DNA of 36,120 nucleotides from Ruminiclostridium sp. (GTDB taxonomy: Bacteria; Bacillota; Clostridia; Oscillospirales; Ruminococcaceae): positions 1-36,120 of the forward strand of contig JAGAWN010000065.1 of NCBI GenBank assembly GCA_017941355.1, in the 5' to 3' direction. The first letter of the stretch is position 1. Each line of letters starts with the position of its first letter. The position numbers and the translations under genes were made by a program. Positions 27,367 through 35,715 of this stretch are shown in pieces. The notes beneath the pieces were generated by a model, which saw only the letters and a list, made by a program, of their open reading frames with translations, was not told the DNA's origin and did not search any database.

Positions 27367-29049
27367 TCAGTTCTTTTTCCGGCTTTCGAGAGCGGCGAGG
27401 AGAAGGACGGCGGGGGAGTTCCAGTAGATCGTGGTTTCGTTGAGTGAGAAGCACCGCTCGTCATCGACGTAGCAGCGCATAGGCGGGGTCCCTGCGGGAA
27501 TGAGCGTCTTTGCGTAGGAGTCGCTGAGATCGCGGTTCGGTCCTCCGATAACAAGTCCGGGAACGCTTTCCTCAATACCGTCGGCTGCGGAGGGGCGGTA
27601 ATGCGGGCAGCGGGAGGCATATTCGCCGTGTCCGGTGACATAGCTTATGCCGAGGGGATTGCGTCCGAGAAGAACGTGAAGCTGCTCTTCGGCGCAGGTG
27701 TAAAACTCGTTGTCATTGGTAAGCATAGCCGCAAGCACGAACTTTATCCCGTGGTGCAGCAGTACCATGTTGCTTCCCCAATAGTATTCCCAGTCTTCGA
27801 GAGCAGCACCGTAGCCGCTCTTTTTATACTTGTCCGCAAGCCAGTAGGCTTCCGTTGCGAACAGATCGGCGAGCTGACGGCTGATCCCGCTGTTTTTGTC
27901 CTCGTTCCTGCACATGATATATGCCAGCGAACCTAGCCCGCCTATGTTCATATAGCCAAGAGATGTCTTGAGGTAGCTTCTGCCCTCAAAGAACGGGGAA
28001 CCGTAGATCGCAAGAAACAGATCGTGATAGCGTTTTTCGCCTGTGAGACTGTACAGCTCGGCAGCTGCCCAATATCTGTTGTCAAAGTCGAATTCTTCGC
28101 TGTAAACGCCGGTGTTGCAGCCGGGCGGATTGAAGAATATCACCGGTTCCGGATGCTCCTCGAGCCAGTTGAACGCGCGCACCGACGCTCTTTTCAGACG
28201 CTTGGAGAAATCCTCGTCATAATCTTTGTAGATCCCGGCAGCAAGTGCGCATAACGCACAGAAATCGGCTGTTGCCGAGGAACTTACGTTGAATACATAA
28301 AGCTTGTCCGTGTCGCGCTCCGGCATTATAAAAGGTGCGTGGTTCATGGTTGTGACCTTGTGGTAAACCGCGCCGTCATCCCTCTGCATACGGAGCATCC
28401 ATTCCAGTTCGTACCGGCATTCGCTGAGGATATCGGGTACGCCGGAACCGCTTTCCGGAATGTTCAGATTCATCTTTCCGAAAAGTTCCGGGAACAGTTT
28501 ATATGAGTACAGGAGCTGTGCGCAGGCGCAGGCACCGGCGGTCACATATCTGCCGTAATCTCCGGCATCATGCCAGCCGCCGCGCACGTTCACCTCCCCG
28601 CCCTCGGCGAGGATCTCCGCAAATCCGCAGTGGCAGCGGGGGTGAGAATACACGCCGGCAAAGCGCTTGTCGAGATCGCAGCCGCATCTGAAATAATAGA
28701 ATGCTTTCGTAACATCGAAGAACAGTTCCTTGTAAACGCCGTCGCTTATTCTGAAAAGCGCGGAGCTTTTGCCTTCGGCGGTCACGCGGTAGCTGCCCGG
28801 ACGTCTGAACGCAGAGAAATCCGCAATGTAAACGTCGTCGCCGGAACATTCGTCCTGTCCGAAGTGAGTGACTTCTCCCTCGAAATGCTTGTCGCCGTTC
28901 TCGTCGGTTATTGCGAAAACCTTTGTTTCAAACGGGATCACGGCAGTCTTGCGGCTGTCCGGGAGATATCCCGCCTGATCGACGTATATCCGGAACGGGG
29001 AGTTGCTGCCGAACTCCGGCTCTTTCTTTTTTCCGTATATTGTCAGCAT
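27367..29049 (-). CDS. Glycoside hydrolase family 9 enzyme without signal peptide
   Basis: 560 aa. Residues about 15-100 form an N-terminal Ig-like (CelD_N) domain (FRIYVDQAGYLP, KVFAITDENGDKHFEGEV, ADFSAFRRPGSYRV). The GH9 (alpha/alpha)6 domain follows: GGWHDAGDYGRYVT with Asp161 and Asp164 (base and nucleophile region), ASRCPHYRPS as the His/Arg motif, and SLNETTIYWN with the proton donor Glu538. The family hydrolyses beta-1,4-glucans or cello-oligosaccharides. The N-terminus (MLTIYGKKKEPEF) has no hydrophobic stretch, and no dockerin or CBM is seen, so it is probably cytoplasmic. Start uncertain because the ribosome site (CAGGTG) is weak. Confidence 0.92.
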   Translation of the reverse strand: MLTIYGKKKEPEFGSNSPFRIYVDQAGYLPDSRKTAVIPFETKVFAITDENGDKHFEGEVTHFGQDECSGDDVYIADFSAFRRPGSYRVTAEGKSSALFRISDGVYKELFFDVTKAFYYFRCGCDLDKRFAGVYSHPRCHCGFAEILAEGGEVNVRGGWHDAGDYGRYVTAGACACAQLLYSYKLFPELFGKMNLNIPESGSGVPDILSECRYELEWMLRMQRDDGAVYHKVTTMNHAPFIMPERDTDKLYVFNVSSSATADFCALCALAAGIYKDYDEDFSKRLKRASVRAFNWLEEHPEPVIFFNPPGCNTGVYSEEFDFDNRYWAAAELYSLTGEKRYHDLFLAIYGSPFFEGRSYLKTSLGYMNIGGLGSLAYIMCRNEDKNSGISRQLADLFATEAYWLADKYKKSGYGAALEDWEYYWGSNMVLLHHGIKFVLAAMLTNDNEFYTCAEEQLHVLLGRNPLGISYVTGHGEYASRCPHYRPSAADGIEESVPGLVIGGPNRDLSDSYAKTLIPAGTPPMRCYVDDERCFSLNETTIYWNSPAVLLLAALESRKKN

Positions 29050-29203: not shown

Positions 29204-29302
29204 GGAACCACTGATTAAATCGCTATTACCCAAAAACCGGCACCGCGAAAGGCATATAATATCAACATTGAGATCTCTGATGTCGATTTAATCAGCGGTT
29301 CC
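29204..29302. mobile_element. MITE-like element, 99 bp with 19-bp terminal inverted repeats
   Basis: Left end GGAACCACTGATTAAATCG (29204-29222), right end CGATTTAATCAGCGGTTCC (29284-29302), complementary at 18 of 19 positions. The ends resemble those of transposons of the IS5-like or related families (GGAACC... with TGATTAA), by memory. The interior (29223-29283) has no open frame. No clear target duplication was found: the flanking bases are TAA on the left and CTG on the right. Confidence 0.65.
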
Positions 29303-29477: not shown

Positions 29478-30209
29478 ATGACAGACATTACAGTATTCGA
29501 GAGACGTGAAATAAAGTACCTCGTGTCCGCGGAGCAGAGAGCGGCGATCGAAAAAGCGTTTGCGGATCACATGATACCCGATGCGCACGGCGAAAGCACT
29601 ATATGCAACGTTTACTGCGATACCCCGGATTACAGACTGATCCGCACATCGCTCGACAAGCCGGTTTATAAGGAAAAGTTCCGTATCAGGAGCTACGGCA
29701 GGGCAGGTGAGGACGACAAGGTTTTCATGGAACTCAAAAAGAAGTACAAGGGCGTTGTTTACAAACGCCGCATATCCGTTTCCCAGTCGGAAGCTATGGA
29801 CTTTATTGCGGGCAGAGCTTCTCTTCCCGATGACGGACAGATCGAACGGGAGATAGAATATTTCGTGAAGTTCTACGGCGGGCTTGTCCCCGCAATGTAC
29901 CTCTGCTACGACAGGAGAGCGTTCTTTGACGGCGACGATCCGAGACTTCGCATAACCTTTGACAAGAACATTCTCTGGAGAACGGACAGGGTACGTCTTA
30001 CCTCGCACCCGAGCGGACGGCAGCTTCTGAGCCCCGGTCAGTCGCTGATGGAGATAAAGTGCGGAGACGCAATGCCGATGTGGCTGGTCAATATCCTCGA
30101 TGAACTTGAGATCAGGCGCGTGTCCTTTTCAAAGTACGGGACCGCATATACAACAATGATATCCGAAAAGCTTGCAGCAGAAATTGAAAGGAGTGTTTAC
30201 TGTGCTTGA
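29478..30209 (+). CDS. VTC-domain polyphosphate polymerase-like protein
   Basis: 243 aa consisting of one VTC (CYTH-like tunnel) domain. The charged strands that line the tunnel of the yeast Vtc4 polymerase are present: RREIKYLV (Lys13), YCDTPDY (46-52), KFRIRSYG with Arg69 and Arg71, MELKKKYKGVVYKRR (Lys87, Lys97), CYDRRAFF (Arg146/147), LRITFD (Arg158), MEIKCGD with Glu192, and SFSKYG with Ser218-Lys219. All key basic residues and the acidic metal ligand appear to be kept, so catalysis is plausible. By family knowledge VTC polymerises phosphate from ATP at a membrane. It has no membrane part itself; the overlapping next gene supplies one. Confidence 0.92.
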   Translation: MTDITVFERREIKYLVSAEQRAAIEKAFADHMIPDAHGESTICNVYCDTPDYRLIRTSLDKPVYKEKFRIRSYGRAGEDDKVFMELKKKYKGVVYKRRISVSQSEAMDFIAGRASLPDDGQIEREIEYFVKFYGGLVPAMYLCYDRRAFFDGDDPRLRITFDKNILWRTDRVRLTSHPSGRQLLSPGQSLMEIKCGDAMPMWLVNILDELEIRRVSFSKYGTAYTTMISEKLAAEIERSVYCA

Positions 30210-30900
30210 CACATTATTTACTAACATATTCAGCGCCGAAACGGCGCAGACTCTCGAAACAGGGAGCTTCCTCATATCTATAGGCTCGGCGTTGATCCTC
30301 GGACTTATTTCGGCACTGTTCTACACCTACAAGTCCACCTACAGCAAGGGATTTGTGATAACCCTCGCAACGCTTCCCGCGATCGTGGCGGCAATAATAA
30401 TGATGGTCAGCGGCAGTCTCGGCGCGAGCGTCGCGGTGGCGGGTACATTCTCACTGGTTCGTTTCCGCTCGGCTCCCGGTTCCGCGAAAGAGATAAGCGC
30501 TGTATTCCTCGCAATGGCGACAGGTCTTGCCTGCGGAATGGGCTATCCCGCATACGGAGCGATATTCACGGTGGTCATGTGCCTGGTGAATTTGATCTAC
30601 TCCGCTTTGAAGCTTGGCGAGAGAAAGAGCATTGAGCTTCGCAGAACGGTCGATATCACTGTTCCCGAAAGTCTAAGCTACGGAGACGCATTCGATGAGA
30701 TCTTCGATAAATACACCTCGGAATGGACTCTTAAAAAAGTAAAGACCACCAATCTCGGCAGTCTCAACAAGCTTACCTACGATGTCCTGTTCAGAGAAAA
30801 CGGCTCGGAGAAGCCGATGATAGACGAACTCCGCACAAGAAACGGCAACCTTGAGATCTCGGTTGCAAGACAGTCGGCGGATCCGCTGAACGAGCTGTGA
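30202..30900 (+). CDS. DUF4956 membrane protein
   Basis: 232 aa from GTG 30202, with AAAGGAG at 30187-30193 eight bases upstream; it overlaps the VTC gene by 8 bases, so the two are translationally coupled. Three or four membrane helices lie in residues about 20-145 (SFLISIGSALILGLISALFY; ITLATLPAIVAAIIMMV), with the typical DUF4956 segment GTFSLVRFRSAPGSAKEI. A soluble C-terminal part of about 85 residues (ITVPESLSYGDAFDEIFDKY) is probably cytoplasmic. Function unknown. Family knowledge: DUF4956 genes recur beside VTC-domain and CotH-like genes, so it may channel or anchor the polymer product (inference). Confidence 0.92.
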   Translation: MLDTLFTNIFSAETAQTLETGSFLISIGSALILGLISALFYTYKSTYSKGFVITLATLPAIVAAIIMMVSGSLGASVAVAGTFSLVRFRSAPGSAKEISAVFLAMATGLACGMGYPAYGAIFTVVMCLVNLIYSALKLGERKSIELRRTVDITVPESLSYGDAFDEIFDKYTSEWTLKKVKTTNLGSLNKLTYDVLFRENGSEKPMIDELRTRNGNLEISVARQSADPLNEL

Positions 30901-30940
30901 TCCGGTGAACGGCGGAACGCGGAAGAAATGGAGAAGTAAT

Positions 30941-33460
30941 ATGAAAAAGATCAATTGTTTATCTATACTCGCGGCTATGTGTTTAGCGCTCACAGCCTGC
31001 GCGAATGGCGGGAATGCGGCTGATGCCGGAAGCGGCTCCTCTGTGCAGCCGGAAAGCTCCGGAAACGGCACTTCCGCAAACGGCAGCGTTTCCGACGTAC
31101 AGGAAACATCATCTGAGAACGGTTCCGCGTCTGCGGAAGAAACTCAGAGCGCGGAACAGACAGCGGAAACACTGTACACGGTGGAGAAAAGCAGTCTCAG
31201 CCTTGACAGCGGCAATATGTTCACAACACGGGATTATGAGATCGGATATTCGGATTGCACTGTGATCGAACTTTCCGACGGCGGGATAAACGTTTCCGGC
31301 AGAGGCGCTTCCGTAAGCGGCGACACGGTGGCGATCACGGAAGCCGGTTCCTACCTTATAAAAGGTACACTTTCGGACGGGCAGATCGTGGTTGACGCGG
31401 ACGGCGAGAAAGTTCAGATCGTTCTCGAAAACGCGTCGGTGACAAGCAAGGGAAGCGCGGCTCTGTATGTTAAGAATGCGGACAAGGTTTTTGTTACCAC
31501 AGCGGATTCCACAGTCAATATGCTCGCTTCAGCCGGTGAATATGTGAATACAGACGAAAACAATGTTGACGGTGCGGTGTTCTCGAAGTCGGACATTACG
31601 CTCAACGGCTCCGGAAAGCTTACGGTAACGTCTGAAACTGCACACGGCATTGTGTGCAAGGACGATCTTAAGATCACGGGAGGAGAATATGTTATAGATT
31701 CCGCGAAGAAAGGCATTGACTGCAACGAGAGCGTGCGTATCGCAAACGGTGATATCAGGATCACCGGCGGCACGGACGGTATTCACGCGGAGAATGATGA
31801 TGAAGCGGAGAAAGCTTTCGTGTATATCGGAGGCGGTACGATCTCGATCACGAGCGGCGGTGATGCTATAGACGCCTCCGGTGATATAGCCGCTGCGGAC
31901 GGTACCGTGAACATCGTTTCGGACGGCGGCGCGGCAAACGCTCCCGCACACAGCGGTGATCTCGGCGGAATGCGCTGGGATCGTGATCTTAACAGTGCGG
32001 CTGCAAGCGGAACTTCGGACAGCACTTCCTCCGATTCCGCAAAGGGCATCAAATCGGACGGCATAATCACGATCGGCGGCGGCACTTTCGTGATAGACTC
32101 CTCGGACGACGCTCTGCACGCGGCGGGTGCGGTCAATATCACAGGCGGCATTGTCACGGCAAGTTCGGGTGACGACGGGATACACTCCGACACCGGCGTT
32201 CAGATCTCCGGCGGCAGCGTGAAGATCATGCAGAGCTATGAGGGAATCGAGGGCGAGGTCATCGAGATAAGCGGAGGTGCGGTTTATGTCAGAGCTTCCG
32301 ACGACGGTATGAACGCGTCGGGCGGTCAGACTTCAAATTCCGGCTGGGGTATGGAGACCGATGCAAACGCATATCTCATAATCTCCGGAGGCGATGTCAA
32401 CGTGAATGCGGACGGTGACGGACTCGATTCCAACGGCTATCTGCTGGTAAAGGGCGGAACGACTTATGTGAGCGGTCCCACTAATTCCGGCAACGGCGCT
32501 CTCGACTACGGTATATCCGGTACAATTACCGGCGGCACGGTCATTGCGGCAGGAGCTTCCGGAATGGCTGAGAACTTCGGCAATGACTCCACACAGGGTT
32601 CGATCCTTTACACATTTGACGGTATTCAGGCTGCCGGGACGGAGGTCTCGGTCTCTGACAGCAGCGGCAACGTTCTTGCAAGCTTCGCTCCCGAAAAGCA
32701 GTATCAGTGTGCGCTGATCAGCGCTCCCGGTATAACTGCCGGCGGAACATACACGGTCAGTGCCGGGGAGAGCAGCCGGAAAGTTGAAATGACCTCCAAT
32801 ATCTACGGTGCCGGCAGCGGAATGGGCAGCTTCGGCGGACGCGGAGGCATGGGAGAAAAAGAAAACGGCGGTTTCGGCGGCAAAGACGGCGGTGCGTTCG
32901 GCGGCCGCGGCGGCAGAAACAATACCGACAGTATAGCGGCAGACAGCAGCACTCAGTCGGGTCAGACGCAGTCCGATCAGTCTCAGTCCGGTCAGACCCC
33001 GTCGGATAATACACCGTCCGTGCAGTCGCAGACAGATCAGACACGATCCGATCAGGATCAGACTCCCAAAACCCCCGACAGCACCGGCAGTGAGCAGAAT
33101 AATGACGGTAAGCGGAACGGCGGTGAAAACTCCGGTAACGGCAATGAGAACAATGCTCCGGAGGTAACGGATCGGGCTGCTGACGGCGAAAGACCGGAGA
33201 TGCAGAACGGCGAAAGACCGGAATTCCCGCAGGACGGACAGATGCCGGAATTCCCGCAGGACGGACAGATGCCGGGATTCCCGCAGGACGGACAGATGCC
33301 GGGATTCCCGCAGGACGGACAGATGCCGGAGTTCCCGCAGGACGGACAGATGCCGGAATTCCCGCAGGACGGACAGATGCCGGGATTCCCGCAGAACGGC
33401 GGGTTCGGTGATTTCGGCGGACAGAACGGAGCAATGGCACCGCAGGGTACACAGGCATAA
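30941..33460 (+). CDS. Secreted lipoprotein with carbohydrate-binding beta-helix (DUF4353/Cthe_2159-like)
   Basis: 839 aa from ATG 30941, with GGAG eight bases upstream. Signal peptide MKKINCLSILAAMCLALTAC: the lipobox LTAC places the lipidated Cys at residue 20. Then a Ser/Gly/Glu-rich spacer to about 95. Residues about 100-570 are many short repeated strands (SGKLTVTSETAHGIVCKDDL, GGTISITSGGDAIDASG, GGDVNVNADGDGLDSNG), typical of the right-handed parallel beta-helix of this carbohydrate-binding family. Then a Gly-rich stretch, a QSGQTQSDQSQ-like low-complexity region, and about seven 9-residue P(E/G)FPQDGQM repeats. Surface display, perhaps binding plant polysaccharide, is inferred. Confidence 0.9.
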   Translation: MKKINCLSILAAMCLALTACANGGNAADAGSGSSVQPESSGNGTSANGSVSDVQETSSENGSASAEETQSAEQTAETLYTVEKSSLSLDSGNMFTTRDYEIGYSDCTVIELSDGGINVSGRGASVSGDTVAITEAGSYLIKGTLSDGQIVVDADGEKVQIVLENASVTSKGSAALYVKNADKVFVTTADSTVNMLASAGEYVNTDENNVDGAVFSKSDITLNGSGKLTVTSETAHGIVCKDDLKITGGEYVIDSAKKGIDCNESVRIANGDIRITGGTDGIHAENDDEAEKAFVYIGGGTISITSGGDAIDASGDIAAADGTVNIVSDGGAANAPAHSGDLGGMRWDRDLNSAAASGTSDSTSSDSAKGIKSDGIITIGGGTFVIDSSDDALHAAGAVNITGGIVTASSGDDGIHSDTGVQISGGSVKIMQSYEGIEGEVIEISGGAVYVRASDDGMNASGGQTSNSGWGMETDANAYLIISGGDVNVNADGDGLDSNGYLLVKGGTTYVSGPTNSGNGALDYGISGTITGGTVIAAGASGMAENFGNDSTQGSILYTFDGIQAAGTEVSVSDSSGNVLASFAPEKQYQCALISAPGITAGGTYTVSAGESSRKVEMTSNIYGAGSGMGSFGGRGGMGEKENGGFGGKDGGAFGGRGGRNNTDSIAADSSTQSGQTQSDQSQSGQTPSDNTPSVQSQTDQTRSDQDQTPKTPDSTGSEQNNDGKRNGGENSGNGNENNAPEVTDRAADGERPEMQNGERPEFPQDGQMPEFPQDGQMPGFPQDGQMPGFPQDGQMPEFPQDGQMPEFPQDGQMPGFPQNGGFGDFGGQNGAMAPQGTQA
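33218..33400 (+). repeat. 27-bp tandem repeat within the lipoprotein gene
   Basis: About 6.8 units of CCG(G)(A/G)TTCCCGCAGGACGG... (27 bp per unit, from 33218), coding for P(E/G)FPQDGQM. Units alternate between GAA/GAG and GGA at the second codon. In-frame expansion or contraction by 27 bp is possible. Confidence 0.92.
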
Positions 33461-33464
33461 TAAT

Positions 33465-33497
33465 GACCCGGTATGTGATAAGCATACCGGGTCTTTT
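33465..33497 (+). terminator. Terminator after the lipoprotein gene
   Basis: GACCCGGTATG (33465-33475) pairs perfectly with CATACCGGGTC (33483-33493), then TTTT. Confidence 0.9.
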
Positions 33498-35299: not shown

Positions 35300-35375
35300 G
35301 CTGGTGTAGCTCAGCTGGTAGAGCAGCTGATTTGTAATCAGCAGGTCGGGGGTTCGAATCCGTCCACCAGCTCCA
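35300..35375 (+). tRNA. tRNA-Thr (anticodon TGT)
   Basis: Acceptor GCTGGTG/CACCAGC, discriminator T, encoded CCA. The anticodon arm GCTGA-TTTGTAA-TCAGC gives TGT. D-arm (AGCTCAGCTGGTAGAGC) and T-arm (GGGGGTTCGAATCCG-like) are standard. Confidence 0.97.
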
Positions 35376-35377
35376 AT

Positions 35378-35482
35378 TTATGTCGGTTTTCGCCGGCATA
35401 AAAAATTATATCAATATGCGTTCACGCATTTGATGTACATTGTTCTGCCGGTAATGGCAGGCGCGTTTCCGGTAACGGAAAC
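35378..35482 (+). other. Hairpins in the spacer between tRNA-Thr and tRNA-Tyr
   Basis: Three inverted repeats: TTATGTCGG/CCGGCATAA (about 35377-35402), CTGCC/GGCAG (35444-35459) and GTTTCCG/CGGAAAC (35465-35482). Only the first is followed by an A/T stretch. They may be processing signals or partial terminators. Confidence 0.5.
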
Positions 35483-35489
35483 TTTATGA

Positions 35490-35575
35490 GGAAGCGTTCC
35501 CGAGTGGCCAAAGGGGGCAGACTGTAAATCTGTTGCATCTTTGCTTCGGTGGTCCGAATCCACCCGCTTCCACCA
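35490..35575 (+). tRNA. tRNA-Tyr (anticodon GTA)
   Basis: 86 nt type II tRNA with long variable arm. Acceptor GGAAGCG/CGCTTCC, discriminator A, encoded CCA. The anticodon arm AGACTGTAAATCT gives GTA. Confidence 0.97.
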
Positions 35576-35588
35576 GCAGTTCTTGTGT

Positions 35589-35612
35589 GAGCAGGCGCTT
35601 TAACGCCTGCTC
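35589..35612 (+). other. Hairpin between tRNA-Tyr and tRNA-Pro
   Basis: GAGCAGGCG-ctttaa-CGCCTGCTC, a perfect 9-bp stem without a T-tract directly after it. Possibly a processing site. Confidence 0.5.
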
Positions 35613-35638
35613 GTCGCACATTAACAGTCTTTTGTTTT

Positions 35639-35715
35639 CGAGGTGTGGCTCAGTTTGGTAGAGCGCTGCGTTCGGGACGCAGAGGCCGTGGGTTCAAGTC
35701 CCGTCACCTCGACCA
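35639..35715 (+). tRNA. tRNA-Pro (anticodon CGG)
   Basis: Acceptor CGAGGTG/CACCTCG, discriminator A, encoded CCA. The anticodon arm CTGCG-TTCGGGA-CGCAG gives CGG. A Pro isoacceptor for CCG codons. Confidence 0.97.

Follow-up and report, generated by a model that had tools for sequence, protein, structure and literature searches.

We describe a conserved three-gene cassette on a contig of Ruminiclostridium sp. (GenBank GCA_017941355.1, contig JAGAWN010000065.1, positions 1 to 36,120 of the forward strand; this whole stretch of 36,120 nucleotides is called the window below). An operon-like run on the plus strand encodes, in order, a polymerase with a VTC domain, a membrane protein of the DUF4956 family and a beta-helix lipoprotein of the Cthe_2159 type. 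Across genomes these genes recur as a conserved unit that divides into two clans, each with a near-exclusive choice of exported third protein (here called the head), which is either a Cthe_2159 or a CotH protein. The polymer, its transport and its ligand we infer: the cassette may couple polyphosphate synthesis to DUF4956 at the membrane surface and serve the exported head, a reading to which we give about even odds (probability roughly 0.5).

The gene for the VTC-domain (triphosphate tunnel) polymerase spans 29478..30209 (+) and encodes a soluble protein of 243 amino acids, matched by PF09359 over residues 9-227 (E 7e-43). The DUF4956 gene (30202..30900, +) encodes a membrane protein of 232 amino acids, assigned by PF16316 (E 3e-16) and hydropathy. 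Its likely start is the GTG at 30202, preceded by GAAAGGAG, which gives an 8-base overlap with the VTC gene. The third gene (30941..33460, +; 839 amino acids) starts with an ATG 40 bases past the end of DUF4956, and PF14262 places its product in the Cthe_2159 family. The first-pass annotation had reported three adjacent same-strand genes with this overlap and this gap; its coordinates proved exact, and the three Pfam matches bear out the arrangement.

A comparison of gene neighbourhoods across Clostridia had been named beforehand as a check, and it returned consistent co-occurrence of VTC and DUF4956. In the family survey (119 genomes), VTC was present in 84 genomes, DUF4956 in 84 and both in 83. 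For 102 out of 106 VTC places a DUF4956 gene lay within 1.5 kb on the same strand, and 101 of these were downstream. Within 6 kb on either strand, 46 places had DUF4956 and Cthe_2159, 39 had DUF4956 and CotH, one had both heads and 16 had DUF4956 alone; the other 4 of the 106 lacked DUF4956, one of them having CotH. Counted by third gene only, 47 places had Cthe_2159, 41 had CotH and one had both. VTC was found in 64 of the 398 genomes of a phylum sample. Outside the family (62 genomes; the rows of G000 and G063 were excluded because they belong to the family set), 70 of 75 VTC places had DUF4956: 22 with Cthe_2159, 38 with CotH, one with both and nine with neither, with five places lacking DUF4956 (one of these with CotH). 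By third gene, this set gave 23 places with Cthe_2159, 40 with CotH and one with both. The choice of head is thus nearly exclusive (Fisher p 2e-13 in the family and 5e-9 in the phylum; common ancestry of the loci makes these values inexact). Two loci hold both heads; the one in G079 includes N and may have been joined in assembly. Both cassette types occur at different loci of one genome in 6 of 84 family genomes and 5 of 62 phylum genomes.

Seen from the third gene, of the 100 family-survey places listed for Cthe_2159, 45 lie within 4 kb of VTC or DUF4956 on the same strand, against a rough expectation of less than one. This linkage is far beyond chance, although shared ancestry precludes an exact probability. 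Counts of Cthe_2159 and CotH places are not exact, since Cthe_2159 was counted among the matches listed, additional stretches within a single Cthe_2159 frame were left out and some split CotH matches were merged. For VTC, second fragments on G049:C104 and G027:C68 were dropped, two fragments on G426:C2 were merged, and one G503 row below the curated cut-off was counted. Both surveys bear out the first-pass proposal that the three genes belong together, and we regard a conserved functional unit as almost certain. One scan of viral contigs returned no relative. An unverified faecal phage record (L292, MT835527.1) carries a VTC-DUF4956 pair and is likely misbinned bacterial DNA.

We built quick IQ-TREE trees of 138 out of 146 VTC and 138 out of 142 DUF4956 proteins (within length limits), with SH-aLRT support and no bootstrap; many inner branches are weak. 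Of the 75 phylum VTC loci, 40 had been retrieved (all 22 Cthe_2159-only, 13 of 38 CotH-only and 5 others). In both trees a single branch with SH-aLRT support of 100 parts a Cthe_2159 clan from a CotH clan. The VTC tree places 63 of 65 Cthe_2159-linked proteins on one side and 46 of 49 CotH-linked proteins on the other; for DUF4956 the numbers are 66 of 68 and 46 of 49. An earlier tree of 100 VTC proteins had the same split with support of 99. At all 131 loci present in both trees, VTC and DUF4956 agree in clan (131/131). Five loci, identical in the two trees, depart from the split by head: L172 and L173 have Cthe_2159 in the CotH clan, and at L094, L144 and L177 CotH lies near Cthe_2159-clan pairs. 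Both window proteins belong to the Cthe_2159 clan and not to the CotH clan. The first-pass annotation had noted that no CotH gene is nearby, and the only one found in the genome indeed sits on another contig; CotH is absent from the window because Cthe_2159 takes its place in one of the two clans.

Part of the CotH partners in the CotH clan start with a short signal-anchor, roughly M-x-x-x-K-x-I-D-x-I-C, followed by a hydrophobic stretch and G-x-x-L-G-I. A profile built from 13 of these anchors (threshold E <1e-4) matched all three Cthe_2159 partners of CotH-clan loci (E 3e-17, 3e-17 and 4e-10). The same profile found no match among 1250 shuffled N-termini, the 64 Cthe_2159 partners of Cthe_2159-clan loci, the three Cthe_2159 partners without assigned clan or the four CotH partners in the Cthe_2159 clan. 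It also matched 4 of 4 CotH partners whose VTC lies outside the tree and whose DUF4956 places them in the CotH clan. Matches in CotH partners are partly circular, as the seed came from CotH; those in Cthe_2159 partners are not. It seems from these N-termini that the head was swapped while the anchor stayed with the polymerase-DUF4956 clan. This reading rests on three loci, and one locus, L118, has N in the neighbouring gene.

The polymerase retains the residues expected of its family. A profile of 36 VTC relatives matches yeast Vtc4 (3g3q) with E 4e-12. R69 and R71 align with Vtc4 R264 and R266 (chain offset +3), and K87, K96, R146 and R158 align with positions that we take to be Vtc4 K281, K294, R361 and R373. 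The basic tunnel residues that mark a VTC-type polymerase (R264, R266, K281, K294, R361, R373) are thus all kept. E192, the likely equivalent of Vtc4 E426, lies beyond the alignment and was assigned by motif. R69, R71, K87, K96, R146, R158, E192, K194, S218 and K219 are 99-100% kept in both clans (75 and 57 rows). The first-pass claim that the tunnel residues are kept therefore stands on both the Vtc4 alignment and the clan-wide conservation. Mutating R264 and R266 together with E426 inactivates the yeast complex (PMC9911596). Given these residues, the window protein probably makes polyphosphate from ATP. Other residues are clan specific: R98 is present in 75 of 75 versus 0 of 57 proteins and R168 in 72 of 75 versus 0 of 57, and Q121, W202 and Y224 follow the clans as well. 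Four CotH-clan VTC frames (L096, L109, L114 and L128) extend upstream into long Thr/Pro-rich low-complexity sequence. These extensions may be real fusions or frames kept open by repeats; the one at L114 begins like a lipoprotein.

By hydropathy, DUF4956 consists of a hydrophobic N-terminal part reaching to about residue 140 (two thirds of the protein) and a polar C-terminal domain. Both clans (79 and 51 rows) retain G81, R87, F88, R89 and G108, and the protein also has its own set of clan-specific residues. Two invariant arginines beside membrane segments would suit the path of a polyanion. A profile of 69 DUF4956 relatives compared with 13 MgtC-family proteins gave a weak hhalign match (probability 35%, E 4e-4) that is co-linear over 113 columns. 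The Pfam MgtC profile reached E 0.15 on the window protein, below its cut-off, and no credible match was found in the PDB (best E 0.03). The MgtC likeness is suggestive only.

The third protein begins with MKKINCLSILAAMCLALTAC, which includes the lipobox LTAC, and is acidic (mature pI about 4.05). PF14262 matches it in two stretches (E 1e-85), and the solved Cthe_2159 structure 4peu matches with E 4e-35. Together these agree with the first-pass description of a big lipid-anchored beta-helix protein. A tandem array of 27-base units (33218..33399, +; 6.7 copies, TRF score 329, 96% matches) codes for its acidic, proline-rich tail, with repeats PEFPQDGQM. Exported-looking N-termini were found by a home-made rule in 68 of 70 Cthe_2159 partners and 53 of 55 CotH partners; by a stricter lipobox rule the numbers were 49 of 70 and 5 of 55. 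The type member Cthe_2159 binds cellulose and polygalacturonic acid (PMC6712302). The suggested attachment to plant fibre draws on these ligands of the solved relative and received no specific support; it is possible, and is weakened by the presence of the cassette in bacteria from outside the rumen and by Pfam finding only PF14262, with no dockerin or cohesin, on the window lipoprotein, which is thus not marked as a cellulosome protein.

We find the first-pass proposal, that an anionic polymer forms at the membrane, the most natural one. Judging by its family and tunnel, the cytosolic VTC enzyme would make inorganic polyphosphate from ATP. DUF4956 would be its dedicated membrane partner, most likely docking the enzyme and passing the chain outward, and by analogy would do the job of the membrane part of yeast Vtc1/Vtc3/Vtc4. 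We give outward passage of polyphosphate through DUF4956 slightly less than an even chance. The exported head, encoded by the third gene, would act at the outer face, on the polymer or together with it. In the sister clan this head is a CotH kinase with a membrane anchor; in the window it is a lipid-anchored acidic beta-helix that may join polyphosphate with cell-wall or pectic polyanions, perhaps via calcium. That the head acts on polymer passed by DUF4956 is a tentative proposal. A fuller version is unlikely as it stands: after VTC synthesis, DUF4956 would thread the chain through the membrane, and an exchangeable head, plugged in by its anchor, would use the chain outside. An extracellular kinase otherwise has no phosphate donor, and in the CotH clan exported polyphosphate could fill that role. 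In the Cthe_2159 clan, the beta-helix could keep it on the surface as a polyanion bridged by calcium.

Several observations weigh against coupled synthesis and use of a polymer. Neither head lies within 6 kb at 16 of 106 family and 9 of 75 phylum VTC-DUF4956 places (a contig end accounts for at least 3 of the 16), and the contig with the second VTC-DUF4956 pair of the Ruminiclostridium genome ends after a further 494 bases, which hold no third gene. Conversely, 55 of the 100 places listed for Cthe_2159 in the family have no VTC-DUF4956 pair within 4 kb on the same strand, so the domain also works without it. The anchor is present in only 18 of 47 CotH-clan CotH partners, 13 CotH partners being the seed of the profile. 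The transport role of DUF4956 draws on its pairing and on analogy; the MgtC likeness is weak, and MgtC is, to our knowledge, no established polymer channel. We found no assay of bacterial VTC activity in the literature.

Other explanations account for part of this pattern. The cassette may simply serve adhesion to plant fibre, with Cthe_2159 as an ordinary binder of cellulose or pectin and with VTC-DUF4956 merely storing or sensing phosphate alongside. The known ligands of Cthe_2159 (PMC6712302), a GH9 gene upstream on the other strand, the rumen or gut origin of many named relatives (among the best 80 of 595) and the dockerin-Cthe_2159 proteins known in Ruminococcus (PMC7480376) speak for it. 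We consider it rather unlikely, since adhesion alone leaves unexplained why the Cthe_2159 gene tracks a distinct VTC-DUF4956 clan across the phylum and why it exchanges with CotH on one anchor. If the three genes instead served phosphate or magnesium homeostasis, DUF4956 would be an MgtC-like regulator that balances ATP and phosphate, VTC an internal phosphate buffer and the exported protein a sensor or sink. The MgtC matches described above (E 4e-4 over 113 columns; Pfam E 0.15), the MgtC domain given to the Streptococcus intermedius protein SIR_1592 (PMC12345266) and the two-component genes upstream in many loci all fit this explanation. Yet the hhalign probability is only 35%, the two-component proteins stay under the NCBIfam cut-offs for PhoB/PhoR as for all other named systems listed, and the exchangeable surface heads find no explanation; we therefore hold homeostasis to be distinctly unlikely.

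It is also conceivable, if improbable, that the tunnel enzyme has another product, such as a phosphate-rich modification of wall or exopolysaccharide, and that the products of the clans differ to suit their heads. The clan-specific R98 and R168 in an otherwise conserved VTC protein, and CotH-type cassettes sitting with Pel genes (PMC7112168), point that way, while every alignable Vtc4 tunnel position is kept in both clans. Chance linkage or hitch-hiking of three unrelated genes would account for the third gene being absent at some loci. It is hardly credible beside the recurrence across the phylum, the clans common to both genes and the exclusion between heads, and we rejected it on the strength of both surveys and the 131/131 clan agreement.

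VTC and DUF4956 are each present in 84 of 119 family genomes, yet we found no tested function of the pair in the literature. With its two clans and its head exchange, a gene pair so far without explanation now yields a hypothesis that can be tested, namely an anionic-polymer export machine with interchangeable surface tools. If true, it would give a place to the long-standing question of the phosphate donor of secreted CotH kinases. It would also help to explain why Cthe_2159 and CotH recur in the same settings; one comparison of fungi counted both among the domains found only in rumen fungi (PMC6712302).

We also compared regulation in survey loci with enough upstream sequence, classing response regulators by length. 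Genes for a response regulator and a histidine kinase were found no more than 4.5 kb upstream at 28 of 64 Cthe_2159-type versus 7 of 47 CotH-type survey loci (p 0.002); the remaining survey loci had them in 2 of 21 cases, and the named loci of the Cthe_2159 type in 25 of 49. The order is nearly always regulator, kinase, VTC, or else the pair is divergent from VTC. With the system immediately upstream in many loci of the Cthe_2159 type, signals probably control their expression. In NCBIfam the nearest families for these proteins are RppA/RppB, below cut-off, as are PhoB/PhoR and the other listed named systems. The window has no upstream two-component pair, though its two nearest VTC relatives have one. 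Cthe_2159-type cassettes recur with the two-component pair, and CotH-type cassettes (L071, L113 and similar ones) recur with genes for RsgI-like anti-sigma, HEAT and glycosyltransferase proteins (clusters of five loci each).

The named loci (the best 80 of 595) lean to the clan of the window: 77 have DUF4956, 58 have Cthe_2159 and none has CotH by our own profiles. Many come, by title, from rumen or gut samples. Carriers include Roseburia inulinivorans DSM 16841, Mobilisporobacter senegalensis, Candidatus Galacturonibacter soehngenii and Chakrabartyella piscis. The gene order is VTC, DUF4956, Cthe_2159 in Paenibacillus cellulosilyticus; VTC, DUF4956, CotH, hypothetical, HEAT on a plasmid of Planococcus maritimus; and CotH, VTC, DUF4956 in Pseudobutyrivibrio xylanivorans.

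The Ruminiclostridium genome (4.52 Mb, 300 contigs) has two VTC and two DUF4956 genes, every one of them paired. The second pair (contig C57, L013 9995-11405) belongs to the CotH clan. It directly follows a shikimate-kinase-like gene and a lipoprotein gene, and two tRNA-like stretches were seen by eye behind it. Cthe_2159 matches occur on four contigs and CotH on one (C165). On C165, a second Cthe_2159 protein adjoins a multi-cohesin protein (L016 7280-13891), so the domain is also used near scaffoldin-like genes, away from VTC, in the same genome. The only CotH found (L015 2616-4985) also has Fn3-associated and lamin-tail domains and likewise lies away from VTC.

Within the window, a terminator-like hairpin followed by TTTT (33465..33493) closes the cassette run; the hairpin is a palindrome, listed for the plus strand and placed by the scan on the minus strand. 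Upstream, at 27367-29049 on the minus strand, lies the gene for the GH9 protein, which has a CelD_N domain and no obvious signal peptide and is thus perhaps an intracellular enzyme for cello-oligosaccharides. Between this gene and VTC, a MITE-like palindrome with 19-base arms spans 29204-29302. A copy of it lies on contig C103 (L014 17713-17819; 88% identical over 107 bases), and a pattern search found no further copies in the window. Three closely spaced tRNA genes occupy 35300-35712.

Among known systems, the closest are the accessory genes of Gram-positive Pel clusters, which comprise cotH, a poly-phosphate polymerase, DUF4956 and DUF4832 and occur in streptococci and clostridia (PMC7112168). 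In the S. intermedius genes SIR_1591-1594, deleting SIR_1592 or SIR_1594 lowered aggregation and changed the Pel level; SIR_1592, presumably the DUF4956 protein by gene order, was assigned MgtC and ACT domains, and according to the authors the order of the three genes did not turn up away from Pel loci (PMC12345266). Like the window, these clusters have polymerase and DUF4956 side by side and an exported third protein. Unlike the window, their third gene is CotH and not Cthe_2159, and the window VTC and DUF4956 belong to the other clan. Pfam detected no Pel family in the 23 proteins of the window that were scanned, and the search for pel did not extend to the rest of the genome. CotH-type cassettes were widespread in our surveys, though pel genes beside them were not looked for. 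In NELoc-2 of Clostridium perfringens, two VTC proteins are each followed by a membrane protein of DUF4956 size labelled tubulin/FtsZ, and a CotH and a HEAT protein come after these (PMC2879425, PMC11677781). Compared by description only, NELoc-2 is of the CotH type, unlike the window. The first-pass annotation had called the cassette the likeliest candidate in the window for an undescribed system. As far as we found, the system as a whole has been described only in part: the CotH version is already in print as Pel accessory genes and in NELoc-2. We found no description of the Cthe_2159 version or of the two-clan pattern in the open-licence literature, and the former is apparently a new variant.

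The eukaryotic VTC complex (Vtc1/Vtc3/Vtc4) resembles the cassette in having a tunnel polymerase with the same catalytic positions and a membrane partner, and the tunnel of yeast Vtc4 sits at the entrance of a membrane channel, coupling synthesis to translocation (PMC9911596). The window polymerase differs in being one end-to-end PF09359 domain without SPX or VTC membrane domain, and DUF4956 is a different membrane family. The MgtC/SapB family gives a weak co-linear match to the membrane part of DUF4956, too low in significance for DUF4956 to be assigned to that family. In ethanol-adapted strains of C. thermocellum, the VTC-domain gene Clo1313_1989 bore signs of convergent mutation (PMC10503014). 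Finally, the window lipoprotein belongs to the same beta-helix family as Cthe_2159 (PDB 4peu, 4phb); at 839 amino acids it is far longer than the 313-residue Cthe_2159 chain, is lipid-anchored, bears a long acidic repeat tail, and is encoded together with VTC and DUF4956.

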